Positions 9,735-34,939 of a stretch of 37,658 nt of DNA are shown piece after piece (positions within the stretch are counted from its first letter, which is position 1; each line of letters opens with the position of its first letter). The notes beneath the pieces were generated by a model that saw only the letters and a program-made list of their open reading frames with translations, searched no databases and had not been told where the DNA came from. The stretch is from NCBI GenBank assembly GCA_014376985.1, contig JACMQM010000348.1, positions 1-37,658 of the forward strand. The letters are read 5' to 3'. Source of the DNA: Cytophagaceae bacterium. GTDB taxonomy: Bacteria > Bacteroidota > Bacteroidia > Cytophagales > Cytophagaceae. A program made the position numbers and the translations under genes.

Positions 9735-10940
9735 ATGACAAAGCATTATTCACTTATTTTTCTGTTTTCTTTGATTCTTTTTTCCTGCGGTACAAAAGAG
9801 GTTGTAACTGAAATAGTCGAAGTGCCAGCTATAAGAGCAAGTTATATTTACCGGGCAGATTCCGTTTTATCCTATGCGGAAATTAACAAAGAAAATCACA
9901 AAGGGCTTTCTGATTCTTATGAACAAAAGTCTTTATCGGCACAGTCTACAGACATGGATAAAGCAATATACTATTGCAAACGTGCCATTACGCTTCATCC
10001 TACCTTTGAGCTTTACAATACATTAGGCTCATTGCTTCAAAAAGGAAAGTATTATGGTGAAGCGCATGATTTATACTTTTTTCTTGTGAATAAACATTAT
10101 GTAGCAACCAAACAGGAATCTATATATGTCTTTCAAGAACCAACGGATGAAATGCGCTATGAATTGATTGCTCTATCTTTTTTGAAATATGGTTATATCG
10201 ATAACTATGCTATTTATGAATACAAAGAAGATGGTCACGACATCAAGAAATTAGAAGGGCGACTGCTGGCAGATGGTCGTTTAAAAATTGACACTACTCT
10301 CAATCAATTTAATAATTTCAAATTGATGTTCATGACTGATGCAGAAATAGACGAATATAAAAACAGCGAACAAGTCTTTAATGGTTTTCTAAATAGTGTT
10401 ACAGATACTTCTTCTATCTTTGAAATCAATGCCAAGCAGGTTCAAAACTTCAAGTACAACAACAGAGAATCCGATGAGATGGGAGAAGAATGGACAATGA
10501 ATGATTTCTATCAAAATTTTTTAATTGAGAAAAAAGAGAATCCAGAGAGCTGGTTCAGGTACAATTTCAATCATGTTTATTCTTTAAATAATAGTATCAC
10601 AGTCCTTGTTTATTCCGTCGATACATCGGAAACGGGGTGTCCAAAGGAAATGAGACATATCTACCACCGCATTGTATTGTATAATAACACAGCACATGTA
10701 ATAGATAATAAAATAATCGCCTTTCAGTCCGGAGAAGATTTAGCAACCGCAACTGTCACTCAAAGCGATATAACGGTAAAATTCTTTAAAAGGAAATGGA
10801 GAAATTCTTATCAGAAAAAAGACTTTGATAATGATCTGTTAAGTGTAGAAGAAGCGGGGAGTGTCAGTTATAAAATGAATGCAGAAGGTAAGATTGAACA
10901 ACAGGGAAATCAAACAGAAACATTACCTTCAACTCTTTGA
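9735..10940 (+). CDS. TPR-containing lipoprotein of unknown function (paralog 2)
   Basis: The 401-residue protein has a lipoprotein signal peptide with lipobox LFSC and C18. A short TPR-like region follows (about 75-115, KAIYYCKRAITLHPTFELYNTLGSLL). The C-terminal half (about 210-390) corresponds to that of the preceding gene. The middle part differs, so the paralogs diverged most there. Its 3' end overlaps the convergent DUF2306 gene by 31 bases. The protein is likely anchored in the inner or outer membrane; its role is unknown. Confidence 0.75.
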   Translation: MTKHYSLIFLFSLILFSCGTKEVVTEIVEVPAIRASYIYRADSVLSYAEINKENHKGLSDSYEQKSLSAQSTDMDKAIYYCKRAITLHPTFELYNTLGSLLQKGKYYGEAHDLYFFLVNKHYVATKQESIYVFQEPTDEMRYELIALSFLKYGYIDNYAIYEYKEDGHDIKKLEGRLLADGRLKIDTTLNQFNNFKLMFMTDAEIDEYKNSEQVFNGFLNSVTDTSSIFEINAKQVQNFKYNNRESDEMGEEWTMNDFYQNFLIEKKENPESWFRYNFNHVYSLNNSITVLVYSVDTSETGCPKEMRHIYHRIVLYNNTAHVIDNKIIAFQSGEDLATATVTQSDITVKFFKRKWRNSYQKKDFDNDLLSVEEAGSVSYKMNAEGKIEQQGNQTETLPSTL

Positions 10941-21526: not shown

Positions 21527-22000
21527 TTAAGGTTTTAAAGAATGAATAAGTTCCTCTAATTGTTGCTTCGTAAATTGTCTCTCGTAAAACGTTTTACTGG
21601 TATTGTTTTTTGAAATAATCAGTGTTGCCGGTATCGATCCAGACCAGGTTGTGTCCACAAGATTGATCCATTTGTTAAAGTCTACTTCGTCAAGTAACAC
21701 TGCTTTCGCAGTGACATTATTTTTCTTAAGGCTGGCTTTTACTTTATCCTTCATAGAAGCCTGATCCAAACTCACCAATAGAACCTCTATATTTTTATCT
21801 TTATATTCCTCATGAATTTGTTCAAAATAAGGTAACTCATCCATACAAGGCTTACACCAGGTTGCCCAAAAGTTGATGACCTTAATTTTGTCTTCCTTCT
21901 TATCCATATACTCCTCTAATGCCGCCCATTTGATGACCTCGACGTCTCCCTGGAAAAATATCAACCCCATCAATAATGCCCAGCAGATAAAGATCTTCAT
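21527..22000 (-). CDS. TlpA/ResA-like thiol-disulfide oxidoreductase
   Basis: The 157-residue protein has a short hydrophobic leader (1-17) and a TlpA-type thioredoxin domain. The active site is FWATWCKPC (C49 and C52), the cis-proline is in SIPATLII, and DELPYFEQIHEEYKD follows the active site as usual in ResA-type proteins. These proteins reduce disulfides in the periplasm, for example in cytochrome c maturation. The redoxin gene lies 5 bases downstream, so this is the first gene of a two-gene unit. Confidence 0.88.
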   Translation of the reverse strand: MKIFICWALLMGLIFFQGDVEVIKWAALEEYMDKKEDKIKVINFWATWCKPCMDELPYFEQIHEEYKDKNIEVLLVSLDQASMKDKVKASLKKNNVTAKAVLLDEVDFNKWINLVDTTWSGSIPATLIISKNNTSKTFYERQFTKQQLEELIHSLKP

Positions 22001-22435: not shown

Positions 22436-23212
22436 ATGAGAGCACTTTGGACAGGAGCTATAGGATTCGGATTAGTTAATATTCCGATTAAGATATACAG
22501 TGCTACTCAAGACAGTGGCTTGGATCTGGACATGCTGGATAAAAAAGACCATGCTCATATTCATTTTAAACGTGTAAATGAACATACCGGAAAGGAAGTA
22601 GCCTGGGAGAATATTATCAAAGGCTATGATCTCGATGGTAAGATGGTTGTATTAGACGATAAAGATTTTAAAAGAGCAAGCGCTGAAAAAAGCGACTTGA
22701 TAGAAATCCAATCTTTTATTAAGGAAGAAGAAATTGATAGCATGTATTATGAAACGCCTTACTACATAGAACCGCAAAAGGCAGGGCACAAAGCTTATGC
22801 TTTACTGAGAGCGGCATTGGAAAAATCTAAAATGGTAGGGCTGTGTTCTTTTGTATTAAGAACAAAAGAGAACCTGGCTATACTCAAGGCTTCTGACGGA
22901 GCTATTATTTTGAACAAGATCAGATTCAAGGAAGAGATCAGAGATTTATCTGAATTGAAACTGCCAGCTAAAAGTGAAGTAAAACCTACCGAACTTAAAA
23001 TGGCCATGGCTTTAATCAGTCAATTGCAAACTAAGTTTGACATTGACAAATATAAAGATCAATACACTTCATCTTTGATGAAAGTAATCAAGGCGAAGGC
23101 GAAAGGTCAGAAGATGGTAGAACCGAAATTAAAAGTAACTAGAAATGCCAAGAAAGATCTGATGGATCAGTTAAGAGAAAGTTTAACTCCTACTAAATTA
23201 AAACGAGCCTGA
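22436..23212 (+). CDS. ku: Ku DNA-end-binding protein of bacterial NHEJ
   Basis: Bacterial Ku is a homodimeric ring that loads on double-strand break ends and recruits LigD. The 258-residue protein has the family start RALWTGAIGFGLVNIPIKIYSA. The central core includes YYETPYYIEPQKAGHKAYALLRAAL, and the helical end is followed by a Lys-rich tail (RNAKKDLMDQLRESL). Length is normal for a core Ku with a short C-terminal extension. The stop TGA overlaps the ATG of the LigD phosphoesterase gene by one base (TGATG), so translation is coupled. This is the first gene of a four-frame unit running to 26708. Confidence 0.97.
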   Translation: MRALWTGAIGFGLVNIPIKIYSATQDSGLDLDMLDKKDHAHIHFKRVNEHTGKEVAWENIIKGYDLDGKMVVLDDKDFKRASAEKSDLIEIQSFIKEEEIDSMYYETPYYIEPQKAGHKAYALLRAALEKSKMVGLCSFVLRTKENLAILKASDGAIILNKIRFKEEIRDLSELKLPAKSEVKPTELKMAMALISQLQTKFDIDKYKDQYTSSLMKVIKAKAKGQKMVEPKLKVTRNAKKDLMDQLRESLTPTKLKRA

Positions 23213-23808
23213 TGAGTATAGTTCAATACATAAAAAAACGAAACTTTAACGATACGCCAGAGCCTTCGGAACGTAGTTCAAAAGCAGTGGCTAAAAAAGT
23301 ATTGACTTTTGTGATACAGCGTCATCAGGCTTCCCATTTGCATTATGATTTCAGATTGGAGATGGAAGGTGTATTGAAAAGTTGGGCAGTTCCCAAGGGG
23401 CCTTCTTTGAATCCAAATGACAAGCGCCTGGCTATGATGGTTGAAGACCATCCGTATGACTATGGAAGTTTTGAAGGCGAAATTCCAAAAGGGAATTATG
23501 GTGCAGGTGTAGTAGAAATTTGGGATAAGGGCACTTATGAGCATATCAGCATCAAAGATCCGGTAGAAGGTAATAAACAATTATTGAAAGATCTTAAAAG
23601 TGGATCTGTTAAAATTGTAATGAAAGGTAAAAAGTTAAAGGGAGAGTTTGCCTTAGTTAAAATGAAAGGTGACAAACCTTCCAATTCTTGGTTATTGATC
23701 AAACATAATGATCAATACGCCACACAAGATACTTACAACAGCGAAGATCATACACCTGCCAATTCACCAGTGACAAAAGCCAACGCATCAAAAAAAAAAG
23801 TCCAATAA
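23212..23808 (+). CDS. ligD: LigD 3'-phosphoesterase (PE) domain, frame ends after an A10 tract
   Basis: This 198-residue frame encodes the LigD PE domain, which trims 3'-phosphates and ribonucleotides at break ends. All residues known from the Pseudomonas enzyme are present, each exactly four positions lower: H38, H44, D46 and R48 (RHQASHLHYDFRLE) and H80 (VEDHPYD). After the domain comes a hydrophilic linker. At 23790-23799 an A10 run is followed, in this frame, by GTC CAA TAA. In the -1 frame the sequence stays open without a stop into the ligase domain (SPITTPEKPKRNLQ). So this is the first part of a PE-LIG-POL LigD, either split naturally or joined by slippage. The start overlaps the Ku stop. 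Confidence 0.92.
   Translation: MSIVQYIKKRNFNDTPEPSERSSKAVAKKVLTFVIQRHQASHLHYDFRLEMEGVLKSWAVPKGPSLNPNDKRLAMMVEDHPYDYGSFEGEIPKGNYGAGVVEIWDKGTYEHISIKDPVEGNKQLLKDLKSGSVKIVMKGKKLKGEFALVKMKGDKPSNSWLLIKHNDQYATQDTYNSEDHTPANSPVTKANASKKKVQ
23790..23799 (+). other. A10 homopolymer at the LigD frame break (candidate slippage site)
   Basis: Ten A residues followed by G include an A AAA AAG heptamer, the best-known -1 ribosomal slip sequence. Slipping back one base, or adding one A during transcription, moves reading from the PE frame into the ligase frame, which is open from here to 25784. A frame-0 stop (TAA 23806-23808) follows two codons later. I see no clear stimulatory hairpin directly downstream. 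Confidence 0.6.
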
Positions 23809-23894
23809 CGACTCCTGAAAAACCTAAGCGAAACCTTCAGTCTATTCTGTCTGAATTAGGTGCAGAAAAAAAATATACTGAATTTATACATCCC

Positions 23895-25784
23895 ATGCTG
23901 GCCAAGCCAGGTGGTAAAGCCTTTGACGATCCTGAATGGCTATTTGAAATTAAATGGGACGGTTACAGAGCCGTTTCAGAATTGAAGAAAGGCAAAGTAA
24001 AACTCTATTCTCGTAACGGAGTTTCTTTTGAAAAAAAATACACTGAAGTCCTTGCTGCTTTACAACAGCTCAAACATAGTATGGTGTTAGATGGAGAGAT
24101 TGTTGTGCTGGATGCAACTGCACAACCAAGTTTCCAATTTTTACAACATTATCCAGATGTACCCGATGATTGTTCACTGATCTATTATATTTTTGATATT
24201 TTAAGTTTCGAAGGAAAAACATTACAAGATGAGCCTTTGCTTACCCGCAAGAAAAAACTGGAAAGCGTTTTGCCTAAAAATTCCATTATCCGTTACTGCG
24301 AACATGTAGTAGGAGATGGAAACAAATTTTTCAAATGGGTATTGGATCATGACCTGGAAGGTATGATCGCTAAAAAAGCAGATAGCCTTTACCATACCAA
24401 CAAACGAAGTAGTGAATGGTTGAAAATAAAGAACCATAACATTACAGAAACCATCATCTGTGGCTTCACCGCAGCAAGAGGTGCACGTAATTACTTTGGT
24501 TCTCTTATACTTGGTATTTATAACGATAAAGGTATTCTTCAATATGCCGGACATGTTGGCACAGGTTTTTCAGATCAAACGCTGAAAGAATTATACTTAA
24601 AGATGAAGAAACTTAAAACAGCTAAATCTCCTTTTCAAACTAAAGTCAAAGTAAATGATGTAGTGACCTGGATTAAACCGGTATTGATTTGTAATATTAA
24701 ATATACAGAGTGGACGAGAGACAAACAGCTAAGGCATCCTGTATTCATGGGTTTGCGCATCGATAAGAAACCCAGTGAAGTGAAGGAAGAAAAGAAACAG
24801 CCTATGGAAACGAAAGTAAAAAAAACGCCTACAAAATCCGCTACTAAAAAAGCAGTGGTAACGGCTGCCAAAGAAATTAAAGCCGTTAAATCTGGAAAGA
24901 TAGAAGTCAAACTTACCAATCAGGATAAAATCTATTTTCCAAAAGACAAACTGACCAAAGGAGATGTGGCAAATTATTATCAATCGGTGCAAGCCTACAT
25001 TCTTCCTTATTTGAGAGATAGACCTGAATCATTAAAAAGAAATCCTAATGGCATTGATGATAAAGGATTCTTTCATAAAGATGCAGGAGAGGGCGCTCCG
25101 GACTGGGTGAAGTCAATTCTATTGTATTCAGAATCTGCGAATAAAGATATCGATTACATTCTATGTAACGACAAAGCAACACTTATGTATTTGAATAATT
25201 TGGGCTGTATAGAAATTAATCCATGGAATTCAAGAATACAAAAAGTGGACAAGCCCGACTATATGATTATAGACATTGATCCATCAGATAAAAATACATT
25301 TGCGCAAGTCATACAAACGGCACAGGTTGTAAAGAAAGTATTGGACAAAGCAGGAGCAACTTCTTACTGCAAAACTTCTGGAGCCACAGGATTACATGTA
25401 TATGTACCTATGAGAGCCAAGTACGATTATGATCAGGTAAAAGATTTCGCACACCTCGTCTCCATGATGGTGCAGGAAGAACTTCCTGAGTTCACCACAT
25501 TAGAACGTCCCCTTAATAAAAGAAAAAATCGCATATACATAGATTATCTGCAAAATCGAAAAGGACAGACACTAGCATGTGCATACAGCTTGAGACCTGT
25601 GGAAGGAGCATCTGTATCTGCGCCCTTAGAATGGAAAGAAGTGAAGAAAGGATTGAAGCCTTCTCAGTTTACGATTCATAACATATTAAAACGTATTCAA
25701 GCTAAAGGAGATTTGTTTGAAGGAGTTTTAGGTAAAGGGATAAATCTAAATGATTGTTTAAAAAAATTGATGAACCAAAAATAA
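23895..25784 (+). CDS. ligD: LigD ligase-polymerase (LIG-POL) part of the NHEJ ligase
   Basis: The frame is open from the A10 tract. ATG 23895 is the first ATG at the start of the ligase domain (HPMLAKPGG), but no ribosome site is visible there. Counting from it, the ATP-dependent ligase has its AMP-linked lysine K20 in FEIKWDGYRA. It also has the EGMIAKK motif and an OB-fold end with RHPVFMGLR. A Lys/Thr/Ala-rich linker (about 292-330) leads to the primase-polymerase domain. There, IIDIDPSD (D460 and D462) holds metal, and SGATGLHVYVP and YIDYLQN complete the active site. The enzyme fills and seals double-strand breaks with Ku. Domain order PE-LIG-POL follows if the frames are fused. The next gene starts 3 bases after the stop. 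Confidence 0.93.
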   Translation: MLAKPGGKAFDDPEWLFEIKWDGYRAVSELKKGKVKLYSRNGVSFEKKYTEVLAALQQLKHSMVLDGEIVVLDATAQPSFQFLQHYPDVPDDCSLIYYIFDILSFEGKTLQDEPLLTRKKKLESVLPKNSIIRYCEHVVGDGNKFFKWVLDHDLEGMIAKKADSLYHTNKRSSEWLKIKNHNITETIICGFTAARGARNYFGSLILGIYNDKGILQYAGHVGTGFSDQTLKELYLKMKKLKTAKSPFQTKVKVNDVVTWIKPVLICNIKYTEWTRDKQLRHPVFMGLRIDKKPSEVKEEKKQPMETKVKKTPTKSATKKAVVTAAKEIKAVKSGKIEVKLTNQDKIYFPKDKLTKGDVANYYQSVQAYILPYLRDRPESLKRNPNGIDDKGFFHKDAGEGAPDWVKSILLYSESANKDIDYILCNDKATLMYLNNLGCIEINPWNSRIQKVDKPDYMIIDIDPSDKNTFAQVIQTAQVVKKVLDKAGATSYCKTSGATGLHVYVPMRAKYDYDQVKDFAHLVSMMVQEELPEFTTLERPLNKRKNRIYIDYLQNRKGQTLACAYSLRPVEGASVSAPLEWKEVKKGLKPSQFTIHNILKRIQAKGDLFEGVLGKGINLNDCLKKLMNQK

Positions 25785-25787
25785 TCT

Positions 25788-26708
25788 GTGGTGAATAGAG
25801 TAGATAAAATAAAAGAGTCTGTAAAAAAATTCGGGTATTTGCTGAAAGTAACATTTATTAAATGGAAAGATCGTGATCCTTTTAACAACAGCAACATCAT
25901 TGCTTATTATACGATCTTTTCCCTTCCAGGCTTATTAGTGATCGTCATTAATCTTGCAGGTTATTTCTTTGGTAAGGAAGCTGTATCACATCAGATCGCC
26001 GGCCAAATAGGGGGTATCATAGGAGGAGATACAGCAAAAGATATACAAGAAATTATTGCCAAAACCAGTCAGAATAAAGGACTCACAATTTCTTCCATCA
26101 TAGGAATTTTAGTCTTGCTGTTTGGTGCAACCGGTGTGTTTTATCAAGTTCAACAAATGTTGAATAAAATTTGGGATGTGGAAGCTAAGCCCAAACAAAA
26201 AATATTGAAGCTGGTTAGAGACCGAGTATTTTCTTTTGGTCTTATCTTGGTTATTGCTTTCTTATTATTAGTATCTCTGGTGTTATCTGCAGGACTTAGT
26301 GCTTTGAGTGATTGGGTTTCCGTGCACATTTCTGAGTCTCTTATGATTGCATTTCGTTTACTTGATATTGTTATTTCGATTGCTGTTATTACATTACTAT
26401 TTGCTTCTATTTTCAAATTCTTACCTGATGTAAAAATTTCATGGAAAGAAGTTTGGGGAGGAGCTTTTCTTACTTCAGTACTTTTTGTGATTGCTAAATT
26501 CGCATTAGGTATTTATTTCGGGAATAGCAATCCAGCCTCCACCTATGGAGCCGCAGGATCTGTTATACTAATTATGTTATGGGTATCCTATGCCGGCTTG
26601 ATTCTTTTGTTTGGTGCTGAGTTCACTAAAATATATGCTACGCAAGATGGCAAAAAAATGGCACCTATTGAAGGTGCCATGCTGGTCGAAAGAGAGGATA
26701 GTAAGTAA
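25788..26708 (+). CDS. YihY/BrkB family inner-membrane protein
   Basis: The 306-residue protein has six or so membrane spans and the YihY/BrkB pattern: RDPFNNSNIIAYYTIFSLPGLLVI near the N-terminus, LLFGATGVFYQVQQMLNKIWDV, the FKFLPDVKISWKEVWGGAFLTS segment, and YGAAGSVILIMLWVSYAGLILLFGAEFTK. The start is GTG at 25788 or 25791, 3 bases after the LigD stop, so it is co-transcribed with ku and ligD. The old ribonuclease BN label for this family is wrong; its function is unknown. A link to DNA repair is suggested only by position. Confidence 0.88.
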   Translation: MVNRVDKIKESVKKFGYLLKVTFIKWKDRDPFNNSNIIAYYTIFSLPGLLVIVINLAGYFFGKEAVSHQIAGQIGGIIGGDTAKDIQEIIAKTSQNKGLTISSIIGILVLLFGATGVFYQVQQMLNKIWDVEAKPKQKILKLVRDRVFSFGLILVIAFLLLVSLVLSAGLSALSDWVSVHISESLMIAFRLLDIVISIAVITLLFASIFKFLPDVKISWKEVWGGAFLTSVLFVIAKFALGIYFGNSNPASTYGAAGSVILIMLWVSYAGLILLFGAEFTKIYATQDGKKMAPIEGAMLVEREDSK

Positions 26709-26780
26709 GCGAAGAGGCGCTCAGTGATGGGATTGTTTCTCGTATTTTTTATAATTCTTTTGTCTCTCCAGTTTTATAAA

Positions 26781-26810
26781 AGAACAAACGCCAGAGAAGG
26801 CGTTTGTTCT
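26781..26810 (-). terminator. Hairpin terminator oriented to the minus strand
   Basis: A perfect 12-bp stem (AGAACAAACGCC at 26781-26792 with 26799-26810) closes a 6-base loop. On the minus strand it is followed by TTTTAT; on the plus strand no T-run follows. It therefore best terminates the riboswitch transcript coming from the right, though it may also slow readthrough from the YihY gene. Confidence 0.7.
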
Positions 26811-26837
26811 GAAGTTAAGATAATCATCGTTGTTGGT

Positions 26838-26870
26838 TTAACAATCATATCCTTCCTCATCTATAACCAT
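26838..26870 (-). CDS. Possible 10-residue ORF after the TPP riboswitch
   Basis: The sequence reads MVIDEEGYDC and then TAA, with AGGTG three bases before the ATG. It lies between the riboswitch and the hairpin terminator. It could be a short peptide, the first codons of a lost thiamine-related gene, or chance. It does not match the start of ThiS or ThiC as I know them. Confidence 0.2.
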   Translation of the reverse strand: MVIDEEGYDC

Positions 26871-26897
26871 TACACCTAAGTGCAAAGGGAGATCAAT

Positions 26898-26991
26898 ATA
26901 ACATCTTTTTTTTCCTTCTTTGCCATTATCCTTTTCAGGTTCAATGGGTATATCTCAGCCTATCACAGCACCCCAAAGGAAAAGATGTTAT
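26898..26991 (-). promoter_or_regulatory. TPP (thi-box) riboswitch, orphan
   Basis: Read on the minus strand from 26991 downward, all hallmarks of the thiamine pyrophosphate aptamer appear in order. They are the P1 strand CCTT, then GGGGTGC, GGCTGAGATATACCC (CTGAGA at 26953-26958), TTGAACCTGA (ACCTGA at 26935-26940), GGATAATGGCA (26921-26931) and the closing P1 strand AAGGAAAA. P1 can be extended by an eight-base outer stem (26898-26905 with 26984-26991). TPP riboswitches normally switch off thiamine synthesis or uptake genes when TPP is plentiful. Here no such gene follows; the transcript would end at the hairpin 88 bases on. Confidence 0.92.
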
Positions 26992-27228
26992 GGTGCATAA
27001 GGGGAAATTCATGCCAGAAATAAAATGCATTACAAATTCATTTTATTAGCTTTTAAAGTTTGACTGATAAAGATACTGTAGATTGTTTGCACAGTTTGAG
27101 TATTTATTTTCAGTATGTTATTCATGGCTTAGTAAGGATAAGAGATGTTTTTTTATGCTTAACTATTGGTATTCCTTTTGACTTATTAAAGGTGATCTAA
27201 TGAGTGATTCTACTTAGAATAAAGAAGA

Positions 27229-27957
27229 ATGATAAAAATAACGTCTTTACTTGTTGTATTGTCAGCTGGTATTTTATTATCAGGTTGTGCATCTGTTTTA
27301 AGTCCTGAAAAGAAATATGATGCAGTTGTAAGATACGCCCCATTTGATGCAGTTATTGTCCCCGGCTTTCCTCATGAGAAAGGAAATTGGAGTATGGTTG
27401 TTAAATGCAGAGTATATTGGGCGGTTTATCTTTACAATAAGGGAGTTGTTAAAAATATTATTTTTTCTGGTTCATCTGTTTACACACCCTATGTAGAAGG
27501 AGAGATCATGGCTTTGTATGCAGAACAAATGGGTGTTCCTAAAGAACATATTTTCGTTGAAACAAGAGCTGAACATAGCTCAGAAAATCTGTATTATTCT
27601 TATTTGCTCGCTAAGGAACATAACTTCAAATCTGTTGCAGTAGCAAGCGATGCCGTGCAATGTATATTTCTAAAACGATTTCAACATCCGTTTAAATTGA
27701 ATGATTTAAAATTCATTCCTATTGTATACGATGATTTACAATTGAAAGAACATCCCGATCCGGTAATTAATGAAGAGGAAGCTTATGTTGCTGATTTTGT
27801 TTCCCTGAAACAAAGAGAAAACTTTCTTCAGCGATACCGAGCTACACATGGTTGCAAAGTAAGAAAACTGATCCGCGAAAATAATGAATGTGCTCAAGAT
27901 TCACCTTCTGAAATGGACAAAGTATCTTTAGAACAAAGCTTGCAAAATCATCATTGA
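27229..27957 (+). CDS. DUF218/YdcF-like lipoprotein (paralog 1)
   Basis: The 242-residue protein has a lipoprotein signal (lipobox LSGC, C20) and a DUF218 domain of the YdcF/SanA/ElyC type. It shows DAVIVPGFPH (about 40-49), NIIFSGSSVYTPYVEG, and the acidic motif FVETRAEHSSENLYYS, which carries the conserved Glu/Asn. Family members act on envelope precursors or keep the envelope intact, by an unclear reaction. PGFPH replaces the usual LGGG-type turn, as in the second copy at 28756. A decayed endonuclease V lies between the copies on the other strand. The tail after 215 is charged and not conserved. Confidence 0.8.
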   Translation: MIKITSLLVVLSAGILLSGCASVLSPEKKYDAVVRYAPFDAVIVPGFPHEKGNWSMVVKCRVYWAVYLYNKGVVKNIIFSGSSVYTPYVEGEIMALYAEQMGVPKEHIFVETRAEHSSENLYYSYLLAKEHNFKSVAVASDAVQCIFLKRFQHPFKLNDLKFIPIVYDDLQLKEHPDPVINEEEAYVADFVSLKQRENFLQRYRATHGCKVRKLIRENNECAQDSPSEMDKVSLEQSLQNHH

Positions 27958-28755: not shown

Positions 28756-29493
28756 ATGAAACATCACTTTCTTCTTCTATTTCACTTTTTCATTTTGATG
28801 ACATTGACCGTATTAACTTCGAGTTGTTTCATCATTAGAAATAATTTTTATACCGACCCCGAGAAATGTTATAAAGAGGCTTTATCAGAGAAACCATTTG
28901 ATGCCATAATAATTCCAGGCTTTCCTCATGACAGTATAAAAGGTTGGGATCGCATTGTACAGGGGAGAGTTTATTGGGCTTTATTTTTATATAAAAAGGG
29001 CATAGCAAAAAATGTAATCTTTTCCGGATCGGCTGTTTATTCTCCTTATGTAGAAAGTAAAGTCATGGCTTTGTATGCTGAACAGTTAGGCATACCGAAA
29101 GAAAATATTTTTGTAGAAACTAAAGCAGAACATAGTACAGAAAATTTATATTACTCTTATTTATTAGCACGAGAGCATGGTTTTAATACCATTGCCTTAG
29201 CTACAGATCCAGTGCAATCTAGTTTTTTAGTGAGCTACAAAAGAAAATTCAAACTGACGAATTTGAAATTCATTCCTATCATATATGATACCTTAATGGT
29301 GATGACAAAGGAAAATCCTAAGATTTTAGCAGATTCAGCTTTTGTTAAAGATTTTATAGCATTACCTGAAAGAGAAAGTTTGTACAAAAGAGTAAGAGGA
29401 ACGGTTGGGGTAAAGATTAAACGACTATTAAAACAACAAAGAAAAGAAGCCAGATTAGAACGTAGGAGATTGAAACGTGAAGTGAAGACTTAG
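28756..29493 (+). CDS. DUF218/YdcF-like lipoprotein (paralog 2)
   Basis: The 245-residue protein is a close paralog of the one at 27229: DAIIIPGFPHDS, NVIFSGSAVYSPYVES, VMALYAEQLGIPKENIFVE and AEHSTENLYYSYLLA match over most of the length. The signal peptide ends at a lipobox-like TSSC (C24). The tail is strongly basic (RLERRRLKREVK) instead of acidic. The two copies flank the endonuclease V pseudogene on the opposite strand, so a duplication spanning or around that gene is likely. A strong terminator follows. Confidence 0.8.
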   Translation: MKHHFLLLFHFFILMTLTVLTSSCFIIRNNFYTDPEKCYKEALSEKPFDAIIIPGFPHDSIKGWDRIVQGRVYWALFLYKKGIAKNVIFSGSAVYSPYVESKVMALYAEQLGIPKENIFVETKAEHSTENLYYSYLLAREHGFNTIALATDPVQSSFLVSYKRKFKLTNLKFIPIIYDTLMVMTKENPKILADSAFVKDFIALPERESLYKRVRGTVGVKIKRLLKQQRKEARLERRRLKREVKT

Positions 29494-33557: not shown

Positions 33558-33584
33558 GAGAAAAAGAAAAAACATCTTTTTCTC
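33558..33584. repeat. Dyad upstream of the superoxide dismutase gene
   Basis: GAGAAAAAGA (33558-33567) and TCTTTTTCTC (33575-33584) are perfect 10-base complements around a 7-base loop, 35 bases upstream of the start codon. It may lie in the 5' leader or be an operator or weak attenuator. A second small dyad (ACTTG/CAAGT near 33587-33602) lies beside it. Confidence 0.4.
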
Positions 33585-33604
33585 TTACTTGTTGTACAAG
33601 TGTA

Positions 33605-34371
33605 ATGAAATATTGTGATTATTTTATTCATCACGCATACATTACTACAGAGGAAAAGATGTTACTTAACTTGTATCAATTTAATGCCAAATTGTTTTAT
33701 TATTATCAGTCAATTGATTAGCGAAATGTGTAAGCCATTTGTTGTGAAAAATCATGCTCAAAACGAGTAAGCCAGTTCTTTTAATCCGACATCCAATCTA
33801 TTTCAGTTAGCGGCCGTTTGAACTGTTACTTAAAATAACATAAAGCTTAAGCTCGTAGATTGAATTGAACAAGCGCTATTAAATTGTAACGTTTCAATTT
33901 TGCAGACCCGATAGAATTGCGGAGTGATGAAGTATTTTATCAAAAAAAGGATTATGTTCAGATGAACATTATAATCAATAATTCATGATGAAATTTTATA
34001 GTAGTGCAAGAGATTGTGTAAGCACATCAGGATTAATAAGATTAATTGATAATTCAAATTCACACGAATACTCTATTTAAAAGGACACAAATAGTATACG
34101 CCACTTGGTTAAAAAATCATGCCACACAAGTAGCTAAGATCGAAACATTTTTAAATCAGCGATATCCTTTAATTTGAATATCTTTAGAAAATCAGTGACT
34201 AAATAATGAAATTGAACTATTCAGACATTACATGTATAATTACTGTCTGTTAAGGACTTTGGTGTTTTTTTTATTCAAAAGTCAGATATAATTGATGATA
34301 AGAAAAAATGCGAAAAAATATCTAAGAAGACAACTGATATTAAAATTCAATCTTGTCTATACATACTGCAG
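33605..34371. other. Long gene-free AT-rich stretch
   Basis: No frame on either strand reads as a protein family, and no structured RNA or repeat pattern was recognised. Frames are short and of low complexity. It may contain the promoter of the superoxide dismutase gene at its left end. An unannotated small RNA cannot be excluded. Confidence 0.5.
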
Positions 34372-34416
34372 ATAAAAAAAATAGAGGACAGTTATTTTAC
34401 TGCCCTCTATTTTTTC
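34372..34416 (-). terminator. Strong terminator after the fasciclin gene
   Basis: A 13-bp stem (34380-34392 with 34399-34411, one G-U pair on the minus strand) closes a 6-base loop. It has an A-run on one side and a T-run on the other, 21 bases beyond the stop codon of the minus-strand gene. Confidence 0.85.
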
Positions 34417-34432
34417 AAAAAACCACACTAAA

Positions 34433-34939
34433 TTATTTAGGCATGATTACTGAATCAATTACATGCACTACACCATTGCTACCTTTTAAATCTGCAGTGG
34501 TAACATATGCCGTATGGCCTAACTCATCGGTTAGTTTTACTTTGTCTTTGTCAAGAGAAGCAGTCAGTTTTCCGCCGCTCACTGTAGTCAACACGACTTT
34601 ACCGTTTCCTTTTTTTATGGCCGCTACCACTGCCTTTGAATCAAGATTTCCACTCACCACGTGGTAAGTTAAAATTTTTGATAACATCGCTTTGTTTTCA
34701 GGTTTTAACAAATTTTCCACTGTTCCTTTTGGAAGCTTGTCAAATGCCGCGTTGGTTGGAGCAAACACAGTAAAGGGGCCTTTGCCTTGTAAAGTTACAA
34801 CAAGGTCAGCGGCTTTTATAGCAGCAACCAACGTAGTATGATCAGGAGATCCAGCAGCAATACCTACTACATCTTTTGTTTGGCCCCATGCTGTCAAAGA
34901 AGACACTACGGTTGCGAGCATTACGATTAATTTTTTCAT
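34433..34939 (-). CDS. Secreted fasciclin (FAS1) domain protein
   Basis: Starting at ATG 34939 gives 168 residues with a signal peptide (about 1-19, MKKLIVMLATVVSSLTAWG) and one complete FAS1 domain. The first FAS1 motif is PFTVFAPTNAAFDKLPKGTV, the central part ILTYHVVSGNL, and the end NGVVHVIDSVIMPK. FAS1 domains mediate adhesion to surfaces, glycans or other proteins. Single-domain secreted forms are common in Bacteroidota. The longer frame adds a non-signal N-terminus and was rejected. A strong terminator follows, so it is probably a single-gene unit. Confidence 0.9.
   Translation of the reverse strand: MKKLIVMLATVVSSLTAWGQTKDVVGIAAGSPDHTTLVAAIKAADLVVTLQGKGPFTVFAPTNAAFDKLPKGTVENLLKPENKAMLSKILTYHVVSGNLDSKAVVAAIKKGNGKVVLTTVSGGKLTASLDKDKVKLTDELGHTAYVTTADLKGSNGVVHVIDSVIMPK

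Follow-up and report, generated by a model that had tools for sequence, protein, structure and literature searches.

A TPP riboswitch homologue with no gene behind it, and the rpoD 3′ UTR as its candidate partner

Nearly all work on riboswitches treats them as elements that act in cis on the gene that follows. On the minus strand of the window (the whole stretch of DNA analysed, 37,658 nt from a Cytophagaceae bacterium), a TPP aptamer is followed by a terminator and no gene, which raises the question of what such an orphan RNA is kept for.

The orphan RNA and its locus

An earlier note on this locus had placed a hairpin terminator within 90 bases of the aptamer, with no thiamine-type gene on that strand up to the next terminator. 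Indeed, the terminator was found about 85 nt past the aptamer (26810-26776), and no minus-strand gene was found in that interval. Beyond the orphan RNA, which the earlier note describes as facing the NHEJ operon, every gene of the next block (yihY, ligD, the LigD phosphoesterase gene and ku) lies on the plus strand, with yihY convergent. No minus-strand gene lies downstream of the RNA before this block; the nearest further one, upstream of ku, ends near 21527-22000. In passing, LigD is split in this genome (window 23212-25784, plus strand), its 3′-phosphoesterase domain being a gene apart from the ligase-polymerase and adjoining ku. On the other side of the RNA, two DUF218 genes (27229-27957 and 28756-29493, plus strand) flank a short opposite-strand endonuclease V gene.

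A minus-strand RF00059 homologue was detected at 26985-26895 with an E-value of 1.2e-7 in a 701-base search and 1.6e-7 in a search of the whole genome, so the aptamer match is not due to chance. Its score of 45.4 bits lies below the curated gathering score of the family (54.3 bits), which explains why an Rfam scan of the window at the gathering threshold returned no matches. The earlier note had called the aptamer complete and had proposed scoring it against RF00059; it is a true homologue, but not a complete one, since P5 and the CG of J5/4 are changed. Judged by its sequence, the element is an RF00059 homologue by descent that has become degenerate in this genome. Weak Rfam matches to STnc50, RNAI and isrF over the terminator region were judged to be chance.

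The RNA was compared between this genome (G000) and three congeneric species (G001, G002 and G003). From 5′ to 3′ it consists of a long P1 helix with the aptamer, hairpin A, hairpin B and the terminator:

27011-27016, minus strand: TGGCAT box, promoter-like, 20-21 nt before the start of P1
26975-26990, minus strand: 5′ strand of P1, TAACATCTTTTCCTTT, which pairs with GGAAAAAAAAGATGTTA; conserved in four species
26895-26985, minus strand: TPP aptamer homologue, full-length RF00059 match, degenerate in P5 and J5/4
26867-26888, minus strand: hairpin A, which folds in all four species; its sequence varies, its position and pairing are kept
26838-26870, minus strand: 10-codon frame MVIDEEGYDC, not a conserved gene
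26810-26860, minus strand: hairpin B, TGAGG..AGGATA..ATTG / CGAT..TATCTT..CTTCA
26831-26844, minus strand: TTGTTAAACCAACA, the longest invariant run of hairpin B; most of it forms the exposed loop, and its complement lies in the rpoD 3′ UTR
26776-26810, minus strand: intrinsic terminator, AGAACAAACGCC-loop-GGCGTTTGTTCT plus T-run, with two compensatory pairs
26658-26680, minus strand: second terminator, embedded in the 3′ end of yihY; all four species retain it, and one of its pairs is compensatory

The 5′ strand of P1 is likely to be the 5′ end of the RNA. P1 has about 14-16 pairs (TAACATCTTTTCC/GGAAAAGATGTTA), which exceeds the usual length for this riboswitch class. Hairpin A shows compensatory pairs, changed on both sides, among the four species. 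Hairpin B exposes an invariant UUAAACCAACA loop, and AAACCAAC, the loop part of TTGTTAAACCAACA, is predicted to be unpaired in all four species (p~1). The structure formed by hairpin B and the terminator has a fold z of -5.4 (26772-26868) and 98% of its cells are paired over the four species, with two fully compensatory pairs, both in the terminator. The covariation score is statistically modest (39 of 500 shuffles reach the observed value) because only four species are available. The T-run of the terminator is kept on the minus strand only. Of the features expected of a transcription unit for a small RNA, a terminator is thus present, a conserved reading frame is absent, and a promoter is suggested by a box shared with a second locus (see below).

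Conservation across the genus

The orphan RNA sits between DUF218 and yihY, with the same architecture, in this genome and in the three congeners. The earlier note had proposed looking in related genomes for a gene between aptamer and hairpin; none is present in any of the three congeners, nor in this genome, and yihY is convergent beyond the terminator in each case. This argues against a recent deletion, and the gene-less arrangement is, from this comparison, old and shared by the genus rather than a recent accident.

The flanking genes of the four species share 57-87% protein identity and only 32-54% identity at four-fold sites, which is near saturation. Over the same distances, identity is 72-88% in the aptamer, 82-90% in hairpin B and 73-93% in the terminator. 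Conservation of the last ~90 nt, hairpin B and terminator together (73-93% identity), with frame-breaking indels and compensatory changes next to near-saturated four-fold sites, points to a selected non-coding RNA. A covariance model of this 3′ part matched the four species of the genus with E-values of 2e-20 to 3e-25 and nothing in 15 other genomes of the family. Over 291 genomes of the order it added just one 36-bit match, in G289, which was rejected as an unrelated chance hairpin with no aptamer. Among 84,980 GTDB genomes the loop pattern was carried only by the same three congeners, so that no extra species could be recruited for covariation, and it was absent from IMG/VR. The RNA, about 215 nt long, is by these searches confined to one genus of uncultured Chitinophagaceae known only as MAGs. 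Taken together, these data make it very probable that it is a conserved stand-alone non-coding RNA, genus-wide and conserved in structure. One option raised in the earlier note, that the transcript of roughly 200 bases is itself the product, is accordingly well supported: all four species have the RNA at one and the same locus, built alike and strongly conserved.

Could the element simply be the leader and terminator of a deleted thiamine transporter or receptor gene, persisting without function? In sister genera a second TPP riboswitch precedes a long receptor-like gene and a gene for a THI5/NMT1-like protein, which makes the loss of one here conceivable, and the decay of the aptamer in two of the four species also fits a relic. 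However, none of the four species has lost hairpin B, the terminator or the long P1, although neutral sites are saturated, and a dead leader would not retain an invariant loop. We consider a functionless remnant improbable. Deletion of a gene with retention of the aptamer, as the earlier note had suggested, survives only as an ancient event before the radiation of the genus, followed by selection on the remaining RNA.

A TPP riboswitch controlling a small peptide between aptamer and terminator fares worse still. The 10-codon frame that had been pointed out does exist (26870-26838), but it is not conserved in the three relatives: 1-2 nt indels break it, it stays open through the terminator in two of them, and the fourth species has no start codon. 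Lost start, indels and frames running into the terminator together exclude a conserved peptide, and we give this reading next to no credence.

It had also been suggested that transcription might run antisense into yihY when the hairpin is passed. Such antisense read-through may occur, but it would have to pass two successive conserved minus-strand terminators; the one within the end of yihY would stop read-through from the orphan RNA. A further motif, TATAAAAAATACGAGAAAC, at window 26735-26753 (minus strand), about 25-35 nt past the first terminator and before the end of yihY, is conserved in all four species.

Aptamer decay without a visible switch

The state of the aptamer differs between species. 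The pyrimidine-sensor strand GCUGAGA is intact in all four. On the diphosphate-sensor side, P5 is largely broken in this genome and the CG of J5/4 is changed; P5 pairs and J5/4 are altered in G000 and G001; G002 and G003 retain them wholly or almost wholly. RF00059 scores at the same locus follow this pattern, with 52.0 bits in G001 and 68.2 and 70.9 bits in G002 and G003. From these alignments, control by TPP is plausible in G002 and G003 and doubtful in G000. A TPP-sensing small RNA, which the earlier note had offered as one possibility, is likewise plausible for the two high-scoring relatives (68-71 bits) but doubtful here, where the diphosphate-binding half is damaged. Damage to the aptamer in two species speaks against selection for TPP gating; we think it unlikely that TPP gates the RNA in any of the species, and considerably more so in the genome studied here.

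The expression platform was compared with that of another TPP riboswitch of the same genome. This genome has two TPP elements besides the orphan, in the leaders of the thiSC operon (75.6 bits) and of a flavin amine oxidase gene (50.7 bits). In the amine-oxidase riboswitch, used as a control, the 5′ strand of P1 pairs with the 5′ arm of the terminator at -10.5 kcal/mol, whereas the corresponding pairing in the orphan RNA is predicted to yield only -0.8 to -3.7 kcal/mol. According to these folding models, the amine-oxidase riboswitch has a clear P1/antiterminator/terminator switch and the orphan lacks one. No antiterminator was visible in the orphan RNA when the P1 strand was tried against the terminator arm, and its terminator consequently looks constitutive in the models. 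Attenuation of a downstream gene was ruled out, there being neither a gene nor an antiterminator, and gating of the hairpin B loop by P1 was also rejected, as the loop is open with or without P1 blocked in silico. Two features expected of a cis-regulatory TPP riboswitch, a downstream gene on the same strand and an expression platform coupled to P1, are thus missing, the second according to the folding models. A terminator that looks constitutive, together with decay of the diphosphate sensor in two lineages, suggests that the orphan RNA is kept for a purpose other than TPP-controlled read-through.

A candidate partner and a shared 5′ module

TTGTTAAACCAACA was picked as the likely seed, and the genomes were then searched for sequences complementary to the loop. 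Apart from the orphan locus, exact complements recur in all four genomes at a single orthologous site, the rpoD 3′ UTR. There, TAATCTTTTTCATAGTTGTTGGTTTAACAAGGGCTGCC is identical in the four species, although four-fold sites of rpoD differ by 22-37%; the motif is absent from the rpoD 3′ UTR of the 22 other genomes of the family and order in which this region was read. The predicted pairing has a core of 14-16 bp and extends over 20 of 21 positions in this genome. Cofolding of the orphan RNA with the rpoD 3′ UTR gains -8.8 to -14.8 kcal/mol, a value equalled by 0-1 of 300 shuffled UTRs, and a reversed-pattern control suggests that about 0.01 exact 16-mers would be expected by chance. By BLAST alone the 21-nt rpoD match is modest (E ~0.08 per genome), and as loop and rpoD site are both invariant, no covariation links them. 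Other exact 11-mer complements were rejected as targets, lying mostly in coding sequence and in no case being conserved in all four species. An invariant seed, predicted to be accessible, and a conserved complement in a putative target, as expected of a trans-acting base-pairing small RNA, are thus present in four of four species. The rpoD 3′ UTR is the best candidate, and the chance that it is a real partner of the orphan RNA seems to us a little short of even.

The same sequence similarity could be read on the opposite strand. The 3′ flank of yihY and the rpoD 3′ UTR both contain TCAT[AC]GTTGTTGGTTTAACAA in the same sense, so that the two mRNAs might share a 3′ UTR hairpin (TTGTTGGTTTAACAA) for a common protein, the minus strand being irrelevant. 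However, the aptamer, P1 and the T-run are minus-strand features, as are the G-U pairs in both hairpins, A and B, and a minus-strand model scores 106 bits compared to 23 for the plus strand. A plus-strand element is, in our estimation, highly improbable.

A second locus in the window bears on how the minus-strand RNA begins. The P1 strand is found again at 33664, 6.7 kb from the orphan RNA and in the same orientation, where it belongs to the leader of a gene for a secreted Fe/Mn superoxide dismutase (SOD):

33571-33664, minus strand: structured leader of the SOD gene, which shares the P1 strand and the TGGCAT box with the orphan RNA

TGGCA[TC] lies 20-21 nt before AACATC at all eight loci, two in each of the four species (the orphan RNA and the SOD leader). 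The shared box is most simply read as a common promoter, with transcription starting near P1. A sigma-54 promoter was considered, as TGGCA[TC] resembles a -24 box, and rejected because the -12 GC and the spacing do not fit; rpoN is present in three of the four genomes. The SOD leader has its own P1 pairing strand, AGAGAAAAAGATGTT, and an interior that differs from that of the orphan RNA; it forms a three-way junction with P1, followed by a T-run. It is conserved with compensatory pairs in all four species, in two of which fold z was determined (-4.4 and -4.1). Rfam offers no convincing match, and a search of 287 other genomes of the order did not find it. On this evidence it is a new structured leader RNA. 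A third SOD-leader-like match, at 34338-34435, proved to be a plain terminator hairpin. Strand exchange between the P1 helices of the orphan RNA and the SOD leader is energetically possible in the models.

These similarities allow for a conserved stand-alone RNA that acts via a protein or via the shared P1/5′ module, for example in co-regulation with the SOD leader, the rpoD match being coincidental. The box at fixed distance and the common P1 strand are consistent with this, as is the ability of the SOD-leader model to detect the orphan aptamer (E 0.0045); the BLAST E-value of the rpoD match taken by itself would also allow coincidence. A shared module nevertheless leaves unexplained both the invariant loop of hairpin B and the presence of its complement in an invariant, genus-specific rpoD 3′ UTR. 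We regard this explanation as possible, if on the unlikely side.

We favour an origin by exaptation, in which the leader of a TPP riboswitch became a stand-alone small RNA of about 215 nt. The conserved upstream box suggests that it would start at or near P1, and it would end at the terminator, with no sign of switching. The loop of hairpin B would act in trans, pairing with rpoD mRNA a short way before the rpoD terminator, and pairing may alter the stability or 3′-end processing of the message for the primary sigma factor. The aptamer domain would serve as a stabilizing 5′ structure, and in two of the four species it may have kept its ability to sense TPP. As a whole, an exapted TPP-leader small RNA with rpoD mRNA as its partner has about an even chance of being correct. 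A wider version, to which we give much less weight, is that this gene-detached riboswitch is a genus-specific trans-acting small RNA on the rpoD 3′ UTR which, by sharing its promoter and 5′ helix with the SOD leader, might tie vitamin B1 status (which some species would still sense and others no longer do) to oxidative-stress defence and to transcription at large.

By analogy, the nearest precedents of the orphan RNA are SreA and Rli55. SreA and SreB of Listeria monocytogenes are SAM riboswitch leaders that act in trans on prfA mRNA (PMC8079631). Like the orphan RNA, they are terminated riboswitch leaders (~230 nt) that work, or in our case are proposed to work, as trans base-pairing RNAs. SreA continues to control the operon behind it in cis, and its pairing site in trans is a 5′ UTR, whereas the orphan RNA belongs to the TPP class, has no downstream gene in any species, has its candidate site in a 3′ UTR and has an aptamer that is decaying in two species. 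Rli55 of Listeria, a non-coding RNA controlled by a vitamin B12 riboswitch, sequesters EutV (PMC8079631) and shares with the orphan RNA the property that the regulated product of a riboswitch is non-coding. In Rli55, however, the ligand causes early termination before the functional, protein-capturing part; neither such a switch nor a protein site was found in the orphan RNA. In Bacteroides thetaiotaomicron, RF00059 elements precede thiS and genes for an outer-membrane thiamine transporter and NMN transport (PMC7366714). The orphan RNA shares its aptamer family with these ordinary Bacteroidota riboswitches, but differs in having no gene, no detectable antiterminator, a P1 of ~14-16 pairs and extra conserved hairpins.

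The open-access literature searched yielded no TPP riboswitch described in such a role. The four related species form a series: the ligand-binding half of the riboswitch is disappearing, but strong selection still holds the RNA that follows it, so that one can test directly how a leader turns into a free regulator. If the pairing is real, control of the rpoD message via its 3′ UTR would be an unusual control point for a primary sigma factor.

As a minor observation, the amine-oxidase TPP riboswitch (L059 about 10271-10368, minus strand; G000:C44:20270-20367), which has a clear terminator/antiterminator, is conserved in the four species, and the flavin-containing amine oxidase gene is an unusual member of a TPP regulon.
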